From: an uncultured Erysipelotrichaceae bacterium
GTDB taxonomy: Bacteria > Bacillota_I > Bacilli_A > Erysipelotrichales > Erysipelotrichaceae
Direction: 5' to 3'
NCBI GenBank assembly: GCA_944325255.1
Contig: CALUZH010000014.1
Location: 1 to 64,000, forward strand
Length of the DNA stretch: 64,000 bases
The notes beneath the pieces were generated by a model that saw only the letters and a list, made by a program, of their open reading frames with translations, ran no database searches and had not been told where the DNA came from. This document shows, piece by piece, positions 1,449-62,341 of the stretch; the first letter of the stretch is position 1, and every line of letters begins with the position of its first letter. The translations under genes and the position numbers were made by a program.

Positions 1449-2069
1449 CTATTCGGCAGACGGTGTTTCCGTCGGTTCAGCCGTAGTTGTCGGAGAAGGA
1501 GTCTCGCCACGCAATTCAGCAGCTAACTCACTGTCTAAAGGTTCGGATACCACCTGCTTTTGCGGTGAAGTCATATTGCCGTTTTTGGTCAATAAGACAT
1601 AATTCATATCCTCATTGTCGCTGTCGATGAAGTTATAGCCGCTGATTGCCAAATCATACATCTTTTTACCATCGCTTGAAGTAAAGTAAGTATTGATTGG
1701 CAATTCTTGATTTACTCGGGTGTAGATACCGTCAACTAAAGATTCGATGCGATCGACACTCATATTATCATCGGTATCGACATTGATCCGAAATTGGGCT
1801 GAAGTAAGTTCGATATCAACAGATTCAACCCCACTCATACTGCTGATTTCCGTTTCCAGATTGCGAATATTTTCATCACTGATGGCCGGATCAAGGTCAC
1901 CGTCAAAACGGTCACCGAAAATCGGTGTTCCGGTTTGCAATTGGGCAGACAACAATATTCCGCCATATACCAATAAAGGAATACCGATGATGCAACAATC
2001 AACAATCAAAACAATTGCTGCTTTGGATAATTTACGTTTAGGCGCTTTAGCCGGTTTTTTCTCTGTCAT
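1449..2069 (-). CDS. Hypothetical single-pass membrane protein with extracytoplasmic domain
   Basis: I do not recognise this 206-residue protein. It has a lysine-rich cytoplasmic N-terminus, one membrane helix (about residues 18-40), an extracytoplasmic domain and a low-complexity Thr/Pro/Glu tail (TPSPTTTAEPTETPSAE). The middle part, with a GVESVDIEL strand followed by helices, resembles the alternation of Asp23-type domains; that is inference. The start is set at the ATG at 2069 because an AGGTGA Shine-Dalgarno lies five bases upstream; the in-frame GTG nine bases earlier overlaps that site. It is the last gene behind ligA-gatC-gatA-gatB, separated from gatB by 31 bases, and is followed by a terminator. 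Confidence 0.8.
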   Translation of the reverse strand: MTEKKPAKAPKRKLSKAAIVLIVDCCIIGIPLLVYGGILLSAQLQTGTPIFGDRFDGDLDPAISDENIRNLETEISSMSGVESVDIELTSAQFRINVDTDDNMSVDRIESLVDGIYTRVNQELPINTYFTSSDGKKMYDLAISGYNFIDSDNEDMNYVLLTKNGNMTSPQKQVVSEPLDSELAAELRGETPSPTTTAEPTETPSAE

Positions 2070-2100
2070 ATTAATCACCTAGGCTATTCTAACATATTTT

Positions 2101-3525
2101 TCAGCGTTTAGCCAATTCCTTAGTTACAAGCTCATTGGCCAGCTTAGGATTGGCCTGACCCTTGGATCTTTTCATAACCTGACCGACCAAATAGCCTAAA
2201 GCCCGATCCTTGCCATTTTTAAAATCGCTTATGGATTGCGGATTATCATCCAAGACCGAAGTAACAATGGCTAAAATGGCACTTTCATCCGAAAGCTGTT
2301 TCATGCCCTTTTCTTTGGCAATGCTTTCCGGATCTTCACCCTTCAACATTTCATTAAGGATCTCCTTGCCCTGTTTAGATGATACTTCACCCTTATCAAT
2401 CATCTTTACCAAAGCGGCAAAGTGATGAGCACTAATCGGATTATCGGCAAAACTTAAGTTATTTTTGCTGAGGATGCCGGAAAGTTCACTGCTTAAAAGA
2501 TTGGCCGTCAATTTGGCATTCACCTTTTCTTGCATAATCTCATCAAAGTAGGCGCAAAGATTCTTGTTGGCAATAATGAGATCGGCATCATAATCGCTCA
2601 AACCAAAGTCATTGACATAACGTTTGAATTTGGCATCCGGTAATTCCGGCATATTTTTTTGAATATCTGCAATGAAATCTTCACTTAAACGAATCGGGAA
2701 AATATTCGGTTCCGGGAAGTATTTGTAGTCGACACTGCCCTCTTTTTTCCGCATCGATACTGTCGTTTGACTCTTTTCATCAAAACGGCGGGTCTCTTGA
2801 ATTATCGCTTCACCGTTTTCAAGACACTTTTGCTGGCGATGAGCCTCATAATCAATAGCGTTTTTGACATTGTTGATACTATTGAGGTTCTTGATTTCTA
2901 CTTTCGTACCAAATACTTCACTGCCCTTAGCTTTAATCGAGACATTGACATCGCAACGCATGGAACCCTCTTCCATCTTTACATCAGAAACTTCAAGATA
3001 GTTCAGGGTTTGCCGCAATTTTTCCAAATACAAGGCCGCTTCTTCCCCGCTGGCCATATCCGGTTCGGAAACCAATTCCAAAAGCGGTACTCCGGCCCGA
3101 TTATAGTCAATCAAAGTTTCATCAAAAAGGTGAAATTGCTTAGCGGTATCTTCTTCCATATGAATACGGTTGATCCGAATCTTTTTATATTTGCCGTCAA
3201 CAAAAATCTCGATATAACCGTTACGGCCGATCGGATGAAACTGTTGGGTAATTTGATAACCCTTAGGCAAATCCGAATAATAGTAGTTCTTACGATCAAA
3301 GCGAATAAGCGGATCAATAGTTAAATTTAAGGCTGTGCAGGCTTCAATTGCCTTGCGAACTGCTTCTTTATTGACACATGGCAGGGTACCCGGATGAGCC
3401 AAATCAATCTCTCCGGTATCACTGTTGGCCGGATCTTTAAAAGCATATGGCGAAGAAGAAAACATCTTGGTCGCGGTCTTGAGCTCCAAATGGATTTCTA
3501 AGCCTACTACTACATCATATTCCAT
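2101..3525 (-). CDS. gatB: Asp-tRNA(Asn)/Glu-tRNA(Gln) amidotransferase subunit B
   Basis: GatB of the GatCAB complex, which activates mischarged Glu-tRNA(Gln) or Asp-tRNA(Asn) and amidates it with ammonia passed on from GatA. The 474-residue length is normal. The N-terminal signature GLEIHLELKT and the following kinase-like core are intact, and the C-terminal YqeY-like tRNA-binding tail ends the protein (residues about 325-474). The start codon follows the gatA stop by one base, so the two are translationally coupled. A GatCAB complex implies that the organism lacks a direct glutaminyl-tRNA or asparaginyl-tRNA synthetase route for at least one amino acid. Confidence 0.97.
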   Translation of the reverse strand: MEYDVVVGLEIHLELKTATKMFSSSPYAFKDPANSDTGEIDLAHPGTLPCVNKEAVRKAIEACTALNLTIDPLIRFDRKNYYYSDLPKGYQITQQFHPIGRNGYIEIFVDGKYKKIRINRIHMEEDTAKQFHLFDETLIDYNRAGVPLLELVSEPDMASGEEAALYLEKLRQTLNYLEVSDVKMEEGSMRCDVNVSIKAKGSEVFGTKVEIKNLNSINNVKNAIDYEAHRQQKCLENGEAIIQETRRFDEKSQTTVSMRKKEGSVDYKYFPEPNIFPIRLSEDFIADIQKNMPELPDAKFKRYVNDFGLSDYDADLIIANKNLCAYFDEIMQEKVNAKLTANLLSSELSGILSKNNLSFADNPISAHHFAALVKMIDKGEVSSKQGKEILNEMLKGEDPESIAKEKGMKQLSDESAILAIVTSVLDDNPQSISDFKNGKDRALGYLVGQVMKRSKGQANPKLANELVTKELAKR

Positions 3526-49606: not shown

Positions 49607-50098
49607 TTAAAGATTATTTTTCCCGGTCAGTTTTAGTAAAACCTCATCTTTTATCGGCTCCGGAATAAAGTGTGATAAGTCACCTCCAAATAAAGCGACC
49701 TCCTTGGCAATCGATGAAGATAAAAAAGAAAATTCCGGTTTAGAAACCAAAAAAACAGTTTCGATATCCTTATCAAGATACATATTAGAAGTAGCTTGGG
49801 CCAATTCATATTCATAATCGGCTATTGCCCGGATACCACGAACCAGGGCATGACAACCATATTCCTTAGCGAGCTTTACCGTTAAACCGTCGCTGCTGGT
49901 AACATGGACATTTTTTAAATGACCGATACATTTTTTAATCATCATTTCCCGTTCAGCCGTTTTAAAAAAACATTTTTTGCGGGGATTAAGCATAATGGCG
50001 ACAATAAGTTCATCAAACATACCGGCCGCCCTTTCAATAATATCTAAATGTCCGCAAGTCAAAGGATCAAAGGTTCCCGGATACAAAGCCTTGGTCAA
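49607..50098 (-). CDS. coaD: Pantetheine-phosphate adenylyltransferase
   Basis: 163 residues. Converts 4'-phosphopantetheine to dephospho-CoA. The nucleotidyltransferase motif PGTFDPLTCGHLDII, the VRGIRAIADYEYE segment and the SSSIAKEVA motif are intact. The next step, dephospho-CoA kinase, is encoded as a fusion with MutM at 57309. Its gene follows rsmD by three bases, the common rsmD-coaD pairing. Confidence 0.97.
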   Translation of the reverse strand: MTKALYPGTFDPLTCGHLDIIERAAGMFDELIVAIMLNPRKKCFFKTAEREMMIKKCIGHLKNVHVTSSDGLTVKLAKEYGCHALVRGIRAIADYEYELAQATSNMYLDKDIETVFLVSKPEFSFLSSSIAKEVALFGGDLSHFIPEPIKDEVLLKLTGKNNL

Positions 50099-55269: not shown

Positions 55270-56181
55270 TTACCAACTTTCTATATTTTCCCTTCGTCGA
55301 TTATTCCCTTTTAAACAATAAGGATCGGCTAGGTTAACTACCCTTTCAATCAAACGTTTAGCCTTGATGGCATCTTCCTTGGCATATTTATCAAATTGAT
55401 AGATATTAGTCAATTTTTCTATATCGGCATTAGAAGTAAAGACGGTAGTCAAATGATTCTCCATCCGATAATCTAAGACCGTAAACAGCACATCATCACG
55501 TGAAAAGGCCGTAACCCCTTCACTGCCGATATCATCAAGTGCCAAATATGGAACATGCATCAATGAAGCGATAAGTTCATCATAAGCTGCCTTATCATTA
55601 ATGGTTAAATTACGAGCCGTATCAATTAACTTATTCACTTTGACAAAAGCAAGCTTTTTACCCATCATGGCCAAAGAATTAAATAAGGCCATGATAAGAT
55701 AAGTCTTGCCGACCCCAAAGTCGCCATATAAGTAAATACCGCGTTTACTTTTACCGCTTAAAATGTGTCCTAAGGCAATACAAATATTCTTATCCGGACA
55801 TGTCTTTATCGCCTTGTCAAAAGTCAATTGATGATATTCCTTCGGAATATCGTTTAAAACGAATTCTTCCAAGTGACGATTCTCGGCAATTAAAGCTTTT
55901 TTATATGGGCAATTGCTTAAGGACGTTGTCAAAACCAGATCATATTCCAAGCGCATCCTCTGTCCCTTATTATCTTGAAGACAATGATCCAAACCCTTAC
56001 AATTCTGACATATTTTGCTATTTTGCCAATAAGCCATAAAGGCAACATAGTTTTGAGCAATAAATTCAATCCCCAAATGATGTTCTTTTAAAAATGCTTG
56101 AATGGATGCATCTTCATACATCAAAGCGACATTTCTTTTTTTAATTTCTGCGACTTTATCAGGTATCGGAAGTTCAATCAT
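55270..56181 (-). CDS. dnaI: Primosomal protein DnaI (helicase loader)
   Basis: 303 residues. N-terminal zinc region (CQNCKGLDHCLQDNKGQ) and C-terminal AAA+ domain with GDFGVGKTYLIMAL and LALDDIGSEG, the pattern of DnaI, which loads the replicative helicase DnaC in Firmicutes. Overlaps the dnaB end by eight bases. Confidence 0.94.
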   Translation of the reverse strand: MIELPIPDKVAEIKKRNVALMYEDASIQAFLKEHHLGIEFIAQNYVAFMAYWQNSKICQNCKGLDHCLQDNKGQRMRLEYDLVLTTSLSNCPYKKALIAENRHLEEFVLNDIPKEYHQLTFDKAIKTCPDKNICIALGHILSGKSKRGIYLYGDFGVGKTYLIMALFNSLAMMGKKLAFVKVNKLIDTARNLTINDKAAYDELIASLMHVPYLALDDIGSEGVTAFSRDDVLFTVLDYRMENHLTTVFTSNADIEKLTNIYQFDKYAKEDAIKAKRLIERVVNLADPYCLKGNNRRRENIESW

Positions 56182-57325
56182 TTTCAGACTCCTTCAGGAA
56201 ACGTAAAAGTTCTTCATATTCACTTTGACCATAACTTGGATTTAAGCTGTCATCATATTGCGGCAAAATATCCTTAGTCTTCGATACTCTAGACTTATCT
56301 TGATTTAAAAAGGCTTTGGCAGCTTCAGCACTTTGAATATTATTGCGGTGCAAATCTCCGGCAACTCCGGTAATATAACGTCTGATTAAACGATTATCAC
56401 ATTTCTTTAAGGCATGTTCAATCAAGACATTGACTACTTCAATCGGCAAATGATAGCGTTCAATAAGTTCGGCAAAAAGTTCCATATCGGCCGGACTGGC
56501 TTCTTTGCCGCCCTGCAAATTCATTAAAAAAAGACTGCAAGGCACATTGTATTCACCTGGTTTTATACTTCGATAATTAGGTCTTACTTCAGCGCAAAGA
56601 CGTTTAAAACGATTAATATTGAATTCGTTAAGATCGGAAGAGACAACCTTACCGACAATAATGCGCATTTGATCTTGGGAAATATTATAAATATCGGCAT
56701 AGCGACCAATCATCGCCAAAATATCGGCTGTTCGAAACTTCAAAGGCAAGAGCGTAGTGCTGGCTTCTTTGACAAAACGCTTAATATCAAAGTATGAATC
56801 AATATGATTATCCGGAACACTTTGTTTCTTAATATAATGAAAATCTGCTTCTTTTTCCGGTGACCAATCAATCAAAGAATTATATTTTAAATGCTTGGTC
56901 ATATTTTGATAATCCTTAAGATCTATCTTGCCCTTCATCAAAGCTGTATAAAGTTCATTATAACGATCCTTGCCAATCGTATTTAAAAGAATGCGAGAAA
57001 AAATCTCATCCTTTAAAAACATTTCCGTACTTTTCGGCTCCCGCAATACAAAGACATAACGATCTTCATATTTATATTTATATGTATCTAAAAGGCGATA
57101 TTCATTAAGTCTTTCAGTGCCTAATATAAAGGCATCCAAAGACATATTTAGGTCCAGCAAAAGCTCGGTTATCGTTCCCTGCTTCTTATAACGGTTGACA
57201 AAATAGCCATAGATAGTCAAAGCATCATTAAAAATCAGCGGTTGATACAAGAGGTAAAGAGCCTGCCACTCGCTGCGTTTTAATTCTTTAGTACCGGTTA
57301 ATAAATAATTATTTCTTCCTAACAT
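56174..57325 (-). CDS. dnaB: Replication initiation and membrane attachment protein DnaB (Firmicutes type)
   Basis: 383 residues. The N-terminal winged-helix part begins ELKRSEWQALYLLYQPLI, and the C-terminal DnaD-like segment contains LPIEVVNVLIEHALKKCDNRL. It is the helicase-loading partner of DnaI, not a helicase. It overlaps the mutM-coaE fusion gene by 17 bases. nrdR, which often precedes dnaB in Bacilli, is absent here. Confidence 0.92.
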   Translation of the reverse strand: MLGRNNYLLTGTKELKRSEWQALYLLYQPLIFNDALTIYGYFVNRYKKQGTITELLLDLNMSLDAFILGTERLNEYRLLDTYKYKYEDRYVFVLREPKSTEMFLKDEIFSRILLNTIGKDRYNELYTALMKGKIDLKDYQNMTKHLKYNSLIDWSPEKEADFHYIKKQSVPDNHIDSYFDIKRFVKEASTTLLPLKFRTADILAMIGRYADIYNISQDQMRIIVGKVVSSDLNEFNINRFKRLCAEVRPNYRSIKPGEYNVPCSLFLMNLQGGKEASPADMELFAELIERYHLPIEVVNVLIEHALKKCDNRLIRRYITGVAGDLHRNNIQSAEAAKAFLNQDKSRVSKTKDILPQYDDSLNPSYGQSEYEELLRFLKESEND

Positions 57326-58700
57326 CTTTATCTATCCACATATCAATTTTAGCATAAAGCTCTGCAAGCGTACCATCATTAGTAATATGCCAATCAGCCC
57401 TTTTAATTTTTTCTTTAATCGGCATTTGCGAATTAGTTCTTTCTTTTACATCTTTAGTTTTTAAGCCCCGCTTTTTTAAACGTTCTAGAGCTACTTTTTG
57501 TTTAGAACTCAAGACCAATACGTGATCAAAATACTTATCCATCTGGGCTTCATATAATAGAGGTATTTCCGCTATGGTTATGGCTTCATGGATACTGAAG
57601 GCCTTATAGCTTTCTAAAACCCGGGGGAAAATTAAGGACTCAATAGCTTTTTTGGCCTTGGCATCGTGAAAAATCAAAGCGGCCAATTTGGTCAAATCAA
57701 TCATTTCATCTTTCGCCAATTCCGGATAAGCAGTCAAAATGTGTTTTTGAACTTCCTTATCTTCCTTATATAATCTTCTTACTTCCCTATCAGCCGAAAA
57801 AGTCTTGAAAGCATACTTTTCCTCAAGATATGCCAAGACTGTTGATTTGCCGCTGCCCATCATTCCCGTTAGGGCAATACGATGGGGAAGAATTTGGCAA
57901 TGCGGGCAATAGTATGTGCCCCGACCGCCGACCTTCGTTTTAACGATCAGGGTTTCACAATCAGGACAGGGATCCCCTTCTTTTTGATGAGCCCTTAAAG
58001 ACAATTGAAAACGCCCGGTAACCCCCAAAGAAGAAGTATAAGAGCGAATGGTGGTACCTCCGGCTTTAATGGCCGCATTTAAGATTCTTCTGGTTTCTTC
58101 AATCAACTTTTCAATGGTCTTGATGTCCAAAAACATCGCCGGCATAAGCGGATTTACCTTAATGGCGAAGAGAATCTCATCGGCATAGATATTGCCGATA
58201 CCGGCCACAAAGTGCTGGTCAAGTAGGACCGTCTTGATTGCCTTTTTTTCATCAGCCAAATAATGGTAGATATAATCGACATTAAAATGATCGCTGAAGG
58301 GCTCCGGTCCTAAATTCTTAAAGTCATCATAATTTTCCCTTTTAGCGATTAATTCCATTCTGCCGAATTTGCGGGTATCATTATAAGCTAGCTTAGTCCC
58401 ATCCGTAAAATAAAATACCACGTGCGTATGGCGGGCATTGGGAGCATCGCCCTTTTCAAAAAAATACTTGCCTTCCATGCGCAAATGCGATACCAAAGTC
58501 ACATCATCCATTTCAAATAGCAAATATTTGCCCCTTCTTAAAAAACGCCGGAAATGCTGACCGATCAATCTTTTCTTGAAACTTTCTATATCACCTTCGA
58601 TAATGCGGGGATAATAAATATCAATATCCCTTATACACTTATCCTTAATAAGGCCTTTTAAGGTATCGACTACCGTTTGTACTTCAGCTAATTCCGGCAT
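57309..58700 (-). CDS. mutM-coaE: Fusion of formamidopyrimidine-DNA glycosylase (MutM) and dephospho-CoA kinase (CoaE)
   Basis: One uninterrupted frame of 463 residues from the ATG at 58700. Residues 1-269 are MutM/Fpg: N-terminal Pro2 and Glu3 (MPELAEVQTV), Lys58, the helix-two-turn-helix (GIGNIYADEILF) and a complete zinc finger (Cys245, 248, 265, 268). Four residues later CoaE begins: HRIALTGMMGSGKST (P-loop 279-287), an EIPLLYEAQM lid segment and a KRADWHITNDG end. No ATG, GTG or TTG lies at the junction, so CoaE cannot easily start separately. MutM removes 8-oxoguanine; CoaE completes CoA synthesis. The gene follows polA by one base. Confidence 0.93.
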   Translation of the reverse strand: MPELAEVQTVVDTLKGLIKDKCIRDIDIYYPRIIEGDIESFKKRLIGQHFRRFLRRGKYLLFEMDDVTLVSHLRMEGKYFFEKGDAPNARHTHVVFYFTDGTKLAYNDTRKFGRMELIAKRENYDDFKNLGPEPFSDHFNVDYIYHYLADEKKAIKTVLLDQHFVAGIGNIYADEILFAIKVNPLMPAMFLDIKTIEKLIEETRRILNAAIKAGGTTIRSYTSSLGVTGRFQLSLRAHQKEGDPCPDCETLIVKTKVGGRGTYYCPHCQILPHRIALTGMMGSGKSTVLAYLEEKYAFKTFSADREVRRLYKEDKEVQKHILTAYPELAKDEMIDLTKLAALIFHDAKAKKAIESLIFPRVLESYKAFSIHEAITIAEIPLLYEAQMDKYFDHVLVLSSKQKVALERLKKRGLKTKDVKERTNSQMPIKEKIKRADWHITNDGTLAELYAKIDMWIDKDVRKK

Positions 58701-58701
58701 C

Positions 58702-61287
58702 TTATTTGGCCTCATACCAGGTCTTGCCCATGGCAAAAGAAGCATCCAAGCGGACCTTCAATTGATAGGCATTGGTCATACCGTCATGAATGAGTTTCTG
58801 CATCGCTTTGATCTCGCTTTCTTCGACATCAAAAATCAATTCGTCATGAACCTGCAAAATCATCTTGGATCTCAATCCCTGTTCTTTAATCATCTTATCA
58901 ATATGAACCATCGCAATTTTAATTAAGTCGGCCGCCGAACCCTGGATCGGTGAATTCATTGCTGCCCTTTTCCCGAATTCCTTAATCATGAAATTATTGT
59001 CATTTATTTCTTTAATATAACGGCGCCGCTTAAGCATCGTTTTGACATAACCATGTTCCTGACAAAAAGCTATCTGCCCGTCCATAAATATTTTAATCTT
59101 AGGATATGTTTTAAAATATTCTTCTATAAAATGCTTAGCTTCTTTTATGGAAAGCGAAGCCTGCTTGGAAAGACCGAAATCCGAGATGCCGTAGACGACG
59201 CCGAAATTGATGGCCTTGGCTTTGCGCCTTAAATGTTCATCGACTTCATTAAGCGGAATATGGAAGATATCCGTTGCTGTTTTGGCATGAATATCAATAC
59301 CTTCATTAAAGGCCGCAATCATCTTTTCTTCATCGGCCAAAGAAGCTAAGACCCTTAATTCGATTTGGGAATAGTCACTGCTCATCAAAATATGGCCCTC
59401 ACTAGGTTTAAAGGCCTTACGAATCATCTTGCTGTCTTCATCCCGAACAGAGATATTTTGTAAGTTCGGATCATATGATGACAAACGTCCGGTTTGAGTA
59501 ATGGTTTGGGAAAAAATGGTATGTATTTTCCCATCTTCTTCGATATATTTCTTTAAACCTTCGGCATAGGTTGAATAAAGCTTGGAATATTTGCGATATT
59601 CCATCAATTGGGCAACCACCGGATGGTAATTGATTAACTTTTCCAAAACTTCAACGGCTGTCGAACGTTTTTTGCGATCAGGCAAGCCCAATTCATCAAA
59701 AAGAACTTCCGCCAATTGCTTAGGTGAATTAAGATTGAATTCATGACCGACATCATGGAAAATATTATCGGCAAGCTCAGCCATTTTTTGATTGGTTTCT
59801 TGCGCAATCGCATCAAGAACCCGATCATCACAACAAATACCGGCTTTTTCCATGGCGTATAAGACCATAATCAAAGGTTTTTCCACATCTTCATAAAGAG
59901 CTAAAACATCTTTCTTTTGCATATCTTTATAAAGCTCAGCAGCTATTTTAGCCATATTGGCGGCAAAGGCACAAGAAAAAGCAGCAATCTTGTCAATATC
60001 CGGATTAAGCGGCTTTTTAACCGTGCCATAAAAAGCTCCCATCTCTGCAAGCGGAGAATAACCGTAATATTCAAAGATGGCATTATAATTATCTAAGTAG
60101 TTATAAACCAAAAAGGCTTCAATCATCAAGTCATCGACATTTTGCGCATTGAAGGCAATCTTATGGTAGTCAAGAAGATGTTTAACAGCCTTTAAATCAT
60201 AGACCAGTTTCGGCTTGTCACTATTCAAAAAGGCAAGGCATGCATCATCATTAAGCAAATCATCCAAGGTGATAAATTCCGTCTTTTGCCCATCACTTAT
60301 TGCCATACCGTCAATTTGCCGGCGATAATATGAAAAAGGTTCACCGGCAAAATATAAAAAAGGACCTTTTTCAAAAAAAGCAGGATCAAGCTTATCTACC
60401 TTTTTGTATACCACTTCCGTATTAATATTATCTTTTTGATTAAGCAAGGAAGTCATCTCATATTCATGATAAAAATGATTCAGGGTCTCAGTGTTGCTTT
60501 TTAAAGTCAAGTCTTTTAAAGAAACATCAAGTTTAATATCGGTTACAATCGTTGCCAATTGCTTAGACAGGAAACATTGATCTTTATCAAGTTCTAAATA
60601 ATCATGGGTCTTACCTTTTATTTCATCCAAATGATCATAGAGATTTTCAATATTATTATATTGTTTTAAAAGCTTAATGGCGGTCTTGGGTCCGATATTC
60701 CTTACACCCTTGATATTGTCGCTATGATCACCCATTAAACTTTTCAAATCAATAATTTGTTTAGGGGTCAATTCATATTCTTCAAAAAGGGCTTTTTCAT
60801 CCATTTTGGCCATTTCCGTCAAACCTTTTTTCATTAAATAGACCGTAACCCGATCATTAATAAGCTGCAACAAGTCACGGTCACTGGAAAGAATACAAAT
60901 ATCAATATCTGAAAAACGGCTTGCCAAAGAACCGATAAGATCGTCAGCTTCCAGATCATCATATTCAAAATAAGGGATAGGATAAGCCTTAAGATAATCG
61001 CGGATAATCGAAAATTGCATTATTAATTCTTCCGGAGTTTCTTTCCGTCCGCCCTTATAGTCCTTAGCTAGTTCATGACGAAAAGTATGTTTGCCCTTAT
61101 CAAAACAAACAGCCACATATTGGGGATTTAAAGTGGCAATGGCTTTTTTAAGCATAACTGCAAAAGCATAGACGGCATTGGTATAAATACCGCTTGAAGT
61201 CTTCATCATATTGGTATAAGCCGTTGCATAATAGGCCCTAAACAACATGGAATTGCCATCAACCAAAAGTAAACACTCATTGCTCAT
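58702..61287 (-). CDS. polA: DNA polymerase I
   Basis: 861 residues from the ATG at 61287, chosen because AGAGG lies nine bases upstream and the protein then begins MSNECLLLVDGNSMLFRAYY; longer in-frame starts lie inside the upstream gene. N-terminal 5'-3' exonuclease (DDLEADDLIGSLA), a middle domain without the DxE of the proofreading exonuclease, and a polymerase domain with DYSQIELRVLA, RRKAKAINFGVVYG and QVHDELIFDV. Loss of proofreading residues is also known in B. subtilis PolA. Confidence 0.96.
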   Translation of the reverse strand: MSNECLLLVDGNSMLFRAYYATAYTNMMKTSSGIYTNAVYAFAVMLKKAIATLNPQYVAVCFDKGKHTFRHELAKDYKGGRKETPEELIMQFSIIRDYLKAYPIPYFEYDDLEADDLIGSLASRFSDIDICILSSDRDLLQLINDRVTVYLMKKGLTEMAKMDEKALFEEYELTPKQIIDLKSLMGDHSDNIKGVRNIGPKTAIKLLKQYNNIENLYDHLDEIKGKTHDYLELDKDQCFLSKQLATIVTDIKLDVSLKDLTLKSNTETLNHFYHEYEMTSLLNQKDNINTEVVYKKVDKLDPAFFEKGPFLYFAGEPFSYYRRQIDGMAISDGQKTEFITLDDLLNDDACLAFLNSDKPKLVYDLKAVKHLLDYHKIAFNAQNVDDLMIEAFLVYNYLDNYNAIFEYYGYSPLAEMGAFYGTVKKPLNPDIDKIAAFSCAFAANMAKIAAELYKDMQKKDVLALYEDVEKPLIMVLYAMEKAGICCDDRVLDAIAQETNQKMAELADNIFHDVGHEFNLNSPKQLAEVLFDELGLPDRKKRSTAVEVLEKLINYHPVVAQLMEYRKYSKLYSTYAEGLKKYIEEDGKIHTIFSQTITQTGRLSSYDPNLQNISVRDEDSKMIRKAFKPSEGHILMSSDYSQIELRVLASLADEEKMIAAFNEGIDIHAKTATDIFHIPLNEVDEHLRRKAKAINFGVVYGISDFGLSKQASLSIKEAKHFIEEYFKTYPKIKIFMDGQIAFCQEHGYVKTMLKRRRYIKEINDNNFMIKEFGKRAAMNSPIQGSAADLIKIAMVHIDKMIKEQGLRSKMILQVHDELIFDVEESEIKAMQKLIHDGMTNAYQLKVRLDASFAMGKTWYEAK

Positions 61288-62341
61288 TGTCATTTGCCTC
61301 TTCCTCTTCGGTAAGATTTTCTTCATCTGTTTCTTCTGTAGTATTTTCCTCTTGATTTGTTTCTTCTTCGGCATCAGCAGCAATGGTTTCCAAAACATTC
61401 AAATTCTCATACATAATGGAAAGATAGTCTTTATTTTGAGCAATTTGGGAAGGCGTCAAAGAAGATATATTATAAAGATTGATACGCTCAAGCCCCAGTT
61501 CACTTTCCAATTCATCAAAAAGCTCCAACATCTCATCGGACATATTCGGCTCATAAGCAATATACTTAACGCCGTCATCGACAATCCGTTTTTTAATTAT
61601 GGCCAATTCCTCTTCGCCCGGCAAGGCTCCGTATTTAGAAAGACAGACAGGATAGATGCCAAAGCCATAAGCCTTTTGCCAATTACCGAAATTAGGAGTC
61701 ATCGTTACAAAACTGATGGTCTTATTTTCGTTTTTTAAGCTGGTAGCCAGATTTTGATAACTGGCATCAAGGGCAATCAAATCTGCCTCTAACTGCTCAT
61801 AGTTGGCAGTAAAGGTCGATGATTGTTCAACATAGTTTGCAGCCAAAGTCGAATAGATATCCTTAGCCATGGAAAGCATACCGATCGGGTCTAGCCAAAT
61901 CGACAAATCCAGCTCATTGGTATCAACATAATCAAAAACATCACCGTTATAATATGGACTTTCCACAAAGGTCTCAACACCGTTGGCATAAACTTTGGTA
62001 TAACGTTTAAAGTCATAGATGGCATTAAGGGTCGAAAGATCAATTTTAATTGCTTCCGTAGCATTGATTTTATCTTCGTATATTTCCCAATAAGGCTCAA
62101 TGCCGCCTAAATAAAAAAGATATGAAGAATCATTTAAAACTTCTTCGTAGTTGGGGATAATATTGGCAACCTGTACCAAATCGGCATTTTGAATGGAAAT
62201 GCTTTGGATTTTATTGCCGCCGATACGATTTAAGAGATAACCGATCGGATAGATAGTATAGGCTACATAACGCTTGGCCCCGGTACAGGCACTAAGCAAA
62301 AAAAGGAAGCAAAAAGCTATAACTTTAATAAATTTTCTCAT
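61277..62341 (-). CDS. ZnuA/PsaA-like lipoprotein without histidines
   Basis: 354 residues from the ATG at 62341. A signal peptide ends in LSAC (Cys19). The mature protein follows the cluster A-I metal-binding fold: YTIYPIGYLLNRIGG, GGIEPYWEIYE, LDLSIWLDPIGMLSMAKDI, VKYIAYEPNMSDEM and QNKDYLSIMYENLNVL. The metal-ligand histidines are gone (the family HxWLDP reads SIWLDP, and the loop with EPH is missing), and I find no histidine in the whole sequence. A strongly acidic tail ends the protein. No permease or ATPase is adjacent; it lies at the head of the polA transcript. Confidence 0.8.
   Translation of the reverse strand: MRKFIKVIAFCFLFLLSACTGAKRYVAYTIYPIGYLLNRIGGNKIQSISIQNADLVQVANIIPNYEEVLNDSSYLFYLGGIEPYWEIYEDKINATEAIKIDLSTLNAIYDFKRYTKVYANGVETFVESPYYNGDVFDYVDTNELDLSIWLDPIGMLSMAKDIYSTLAANYVEQSSTFTANYEQLEADLIALDASYQNLATSLKNENKTISFVTMTPNFGNWQKAYGFGIYPVCLSKYGALPGEEELAIIKKRIVDDGVKYIAYEPNMSDEMLELFDELESELGLERINLYNISSLTPSQIAQNKDYLSIMYENLNVLETIAADAEEETNQEENTTEETDEENLTEEEEANDNEQ

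Follow-up and report, generated by a model that had tools for sequence, protein, structure and literature searches.

The mutM-coaE locus

In the window, by which the whole stretch of 64,000 nucleotides analyzed is meant and which comes from a gut bacterium, a MutM (Fpg) DNA glycosylase and the dephospho-CoA kinase CoaE are encoded by one gene that lies directly downstream of polA. The features of the locus are as follows.

58702..61398, minus strand: polA, directly upstream of the fusion
57309..58700, minus strand: mutM-coaE fusion gene, a single ORF of 463 aa, assigned from Pfam and NCBIfam domains and from homologous fusions
57894..58700, minus strand: MutM/Fpg half, residues 1-269, with N-terminal domain, H2TH and zinc finger C245-C248-C265-C268
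57879..57893, minus strand: linker ILPHR, residues 270-274
57312..57878, minus strand: CoaE half, residues 275-463, with P-loop GMMGSGKS (279-286), D304, IPLLYE (379-384), Q425 and N441
56174..57325, minus strand: dnaB-like replication initiation gene (DnaB_2), separate from the fusion
55270..56181, minus strand: dnaI-like helicase loader

The first-pass annotation described this gene as a single-gene fusion of MutM and CoaE, and that description stands, as MutM (Fpg) and CoaE, both complete and full length, follow one another in one stop-free frame with five linker residues between them, and the same fusion is present in a congener. The Pfam families Fapy_DNA_glyco, H2TH, zf-FPG_IleRS and CoaE and the NCBIfam models fpg (TIGR00577) and CoaE (TIGR00152) all match above their curated cut-offs. 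The gene runs on the minus strand from the ATG at 58700 to the stop codon at 57309-57311, and the predicted product is 53.5 kDa as computed from the sequence, in agreement with the earlier expectation of about 53 kDa. The maximal minus-strand ORF is longer (57309-58745). The nucleophile in MutM/Fpg chemistry is the proline next to the initiator Met, and because of this the start at 58700 (MPELAEV) was taken as the functional one; initiation further upstream, at 58745, is unlikely as it would bury the catalytic Pro2. Upstream, a single base lies between the polA stop codon (58702-58704) and the mutM ATG (58698-58700), while at the 3′ end the fusion and the dnaB-like gene overlap by 17 bases yet are two genes.

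At the junction, C268 is the final Cys of the zinc finger, residue 269 closes the CQ motif, the first CoaE strand begins at I275 and the P-loop extends from G279 to S286. The zinc finger had been read as complete at Cys268 with the P-loop about ten residues on, and the distance from C268 to G279 is 11 residues; the absence of a stop and of any ATG, GTG or TTG, also noted previously, holds for residues 270-274. Since the nearest in-frame starts are TTG233, upstream of the zinc finger, and ATG280/ATG281, within the P-loop, a CoaE translated on its own would lack its first strand, the exception being initiation at a rare ATT codon. The two candidates for the latter, I270 and I275, were set aside, and neither is preceded by a Shine-Dalgarno-like sequence. 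Across 52 distinct fused sequences with which the linker was compared, the spacing from the CQ end of the zinc finger to the GK of the P-loop is 13-22 residues, mostly 14-17, and the linker contains an ATG, GTG or TTG in 14 of the 52 and an ATG in three.

Both halves as predicted enzymes

The MutM half has the features expected of MutM/Fpg, namely Pro2-Glu3, Lys58, the H2TH and a Cys4 zinc finger with Arg260, and it scores 305 bits against TIGR00577 (cut-off 203) in a match that reaches the model end. Across 42 fused proteins, the MutM catalytic and zinc residues tested show little or no variation, and P2, E3, K58, R260 and all but one of the four zinc Cys are invariant. In a Foldseek search with the structure model, this half aligned in most of the top matches to MutM-DNA crystal structures with target TM scores of 0.91-0.93, and it matches solved MutM/Fpg structures (2f5q, 1r2y and 1pm5) over nearly its full length.

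The CoaE half likewise has the P-loop, the catalytic Asp and the PLLxE motif of its family, and its full-length matches exceed the curated cut-offs of both Pfam CoaE (105 bits versus 27) and TIGR00152 (129 bits versus 65.6). A sequence search of solved structures retrieved CoaE structures 8dv0 and 2if2, and the match to solved CoaE (8dv0, 2if2 and 1uf9) covers nearly the full length. Residues G279, G284, K285 and D304 are invariant in the 42 fused proteins. The His of the HP motif is common in the CoaE family and is found at the corresponding position in 38 of the 42, but in the window protein this residue is Phe358. The earlier statement that both halves keep their catalytic residues is therefore right for the MutM set and for the CoaE P-loop and D304 but has to be qualified for the Phe that replaces the usual His. 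We know of no requirement for this His in CoaE, and F358 was not taken as disqualifying, with CoaE membership resting on the curated models.

A second coaE or mutM, for which the first-pass annotation suggested a check, is absent from the genome, where family searches gave one CoaE and one Fpg-type H2TH match, both in the fusion gene. Exactly one CoaE, in the fused frame, is present in each of 29 fused genomes from many families, this one included, and each has exactly one H2TH match above the cut-off, with a second, sub-threshold match in one of them. The lower conservation of the CoaE half compared with the MutM half in the fused proteins, and the degraded motif of the Q425 region in families f8 and f19, could be read to mean that, at least in some lineages, this half is kinase-dead and is now an accessory domain of MutM. 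That is very unlikely given the invariant P-loop and D304, the lack of any other CoaE in all 29 fused genomes and a window CoaE that lies above the TIGR00152 cut-off. In the f8 and f19 loci concerned (L148, L150, L152 and L154), the degraded motif is the C-terminal CoaE motif, the P-loop is kept and no other CoaE occurs in the genomes. Both domains of the fusion are inferred to be active and the chain uncut.

An AlphaFold2 model of the fusion, computed with a 42-sequence alignment, has a mean pLDDT of 93 and a pTM of 0.88 and contains no disordered or low-confidence linker, which suggests that the MutM and CoaE domains are placed in a defined relative position. The sequence search of solved structures found no chain covering both halves.

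Elsewhere in the CoA pathway, the genome encodes CoaD and a type III pantothenate kinase, and coaD, the preceding step, is located in the window at 49640-50089 on the same strand as the fusion and ∼7 kb from it. No match to CoaBC (TIGR00521) or DFP (PF04127) was found in the genome, which is 98.8% complete, and from its gene content de novo CoA synthesis looks incomplete here, with the middle of the pathway missing or replaced.

Distribution and repeated joining

The first-pass annotation proposed a search for this domain order and its mapping on a tree, and the architecture turns out to be widespread in the class and scattered among separate states. The same fusion is found in congener G001 (57% identical) and in the Erysipelotrichaceae-like MAGs L003-L007, L027 and L029, and at least 26 genomes of the same family have a stop-free match that spans both halves. 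Among the matches listed, at least ∼70 of 395 sampled genomes of the class are fused, one- and two-contig genomes included, and these fall in ten families (f1, f6, f8, f11, f14, f19, f20, f21, f22, and f25). Outside the class, no fusion was detected among 245 genomes of the phylum at a strict threshold (E up to 1e-70). Candidates rejected as fusions were MutM frames of ∼500 aa in f14, which are two same-frame genes with a stop between, and matches in genus g32 and others that span both genes with one stop. Many close relatives retain mutM and coaE as two genes.

That two genes were joined by an assembly or sequencing error has a vanishingly small chance of being correct. The genome is indeed a multi-contig one (32 contigs), but the fusion is also present in the congener and in tens of other assemblies, among them the one- and two-contig ones, and the conservation of the open frame refutes such an error. 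Conservation of the frame in the congener, at 57% identity, and in many other genomes excludes chance or base-calling error, and the fusion is genuine.

The sister lineages with separate mutM and coaE have the same polA-mutM-coaE order and the same proteins as the fusion locus but differ in having two genes with stop and start codons that overlap or are adjacent. In these two-gene relatives, the start of coaE is mostly placed inside or right next to the mutM stop codon and out of frame with mutM (ATGA-type overlap), or coaE shares the mutM frame and is set off from it by one stop. The latter arrangement, with a stop between same-frame mutM and coaE, was seen in loci of g32, f9, f13, and f14 (for example, L082, L084, L163, and L175), and such pairs are apparently one step from fusion. 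In the fused L162, a Met is retained at the expected former CoaE start, as if the fusion had come from a simple stop loss.

The history of the two states was followed in trees built from the concatenated PolA C-terminus, MutM and CoaE, and these are operon trees, not an independent species tree. Changes between fused and separate numbered nine in a FastTree of 110 rows (seven forced), seven in a careful family tree of 51 rows (six forced by supported branches) and 15 in a class tree of 97 rows (14 forced), and these counts carry no direction, such that gain and loss are not separable and some separate states could be fissions. An AU test on the family tree rejected a single fused clade (p-AU 3.5e-59). 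The interleaving of fused and separate states suggests that overlapping neighbors in the operon fused repeatedly, and repeated gain is more likely than repeated fission because the separate genes share the ATGA-type overlap. A single ancient fusion event in the class, with many later splits back into two genes, would fit the families that are uniformly or mostly fused among the matches listed (f6, f8, f19, and f20), but it is improbable, since within the family of the window the fused rows lie among separate ones, each fission must recreate the ATGA-type overlap shared by the separate relatives and the Met of L162 fits a recent stop loss among same-frame neighbors.

The gene very probably encodes a bifunctional MutM-CoaE that arose by the joining of operon neighbors with overlapping stop and start codons. 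Phe358 in place of the usual His and the lack of a CoaB/CoaC match in the genome speak against this reading. Given the ATGA-type overlap, translation of mutM and coaE was probably coupled before fusion, and a small indel or the loss of a stop codon would then have generated one chain in which the former coaE start was lost. Such a single polypeptide would supply both activities in a fixed 1:1 ratio. MutM could be joined at its C-terminus only, as Pro2 must be the free N-terminus to attack the lesion, and the fusion would be tolerated because MutM requires a free N-terminal proline and not a free C-terminus.

Two other junctions of the operon serve as controls. The junction between coaE and the next gene is joined in no locus, while that between polA and mutM is joined once only, in L106 (G278), where the polA-mutM frame, a seeming triple fusion, contains a run of N (assembly gap) and is an assembly artefact. 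As MutM does not tolerate an extended N-terminus, the polA-mutM junction is a weak control.

These controls bear on whether the fusion was selected, with the tethering of CoaE to MutM or the fixing of their ratio being beneficial and hence evolving repeatedly; the benefit might be, for example, a stabilized CoaE or a CoA supply coupled to the repair of oxidative damage. This is unlikely, although not without evidence, in that the fusion occurs repeatedly, the neighboring tight junctions of the same operon are unjoined, the linker length is narrow and the relative domain placement is predicted with confidence (pTM 0.88). Against it, the chemistry of MutM forbids a join to polA, so that this junction is a weak control, the mutM-coaE overlap eases accidental joining, many close relatives have two genes and, to our knowledge, there is no functional tie between the MutM and CoaE reactions. 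A more specific form, in which the fusion was repeatedly selected and the zinc finger of MutM is in fixed contact with the CoA kinase in a way that alters one or both enzymes, is distinctly unlikely; if true, that contact would be a link between CoA metabolism and the repair of oxidized DNA. The first-pass annotation left the choice between a neutral fusion of coupled neighbors and a way to fix their ratio, and the comparative data favor neutral fusion as the origin, with ratio fixing retained as a possible alternative. We infer that the joining of these overlapping neighbors arose without a specific regulatory purpose.

Earlier descriptions and significance

It had been left in doubt whether this fusion was described elsewhere. 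It is widespread in the class, as seen above, and is implied for phytoplasmas by a passage of a 2011 review (PMC3322544), according to which CoaE is present in four phytoplasma genomes but annotated as formamidopyrimidine-DNA glycosylase, an annotation that implies the same MutM-CoaE architecture. The phytoplasma genes are from another lineage, that passage does not call them a fusion and the likeness is one of description. Literature searches gave no paper that describes a MutM-CoaE fusion by name, the passage in PMC3322544 being the sole relevant one. There is a practical side to this, in that a pipeline will report coaE as missing where the gene is named MutM alone (compare the phytoplasmas in PMC3322544).

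The arrangement is thus implicitly known and, by these searches, common in the class, and its repeated origin seems undescribed. The fusion is not unique and the interesting part is its recurrence, as a single class shows many joinings of two enzymes for which no functional tie is known, one essential to metabolism and the other acting in DNA repair. This provides a natural series for how overlapping genes merge into one protein, for whether enzyme chemistry, here the free N-terminus of MutM, dictates the direction in which genes fuse, and for whether recurrent fusion reflects selection or mere opportunity.

CoaE is also part of a larger chain in COASY (PPAT-DPCK) of animals and in CoaE-GrpB of actinobacteria. 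There CoaE is joined to another CoA enzyme or to a C-terminal domain, whereas in MutM-CoaE it is joined to a DNA glycosylase. In family f2, the CoaE ORF of L114 (G055; 1749-3102, reverse complement) has ∼240 in-frame residues before CoaE, in which no Pfam match was found, and this CoaE thus has an N-terminal extension or fusion partner of another kind.
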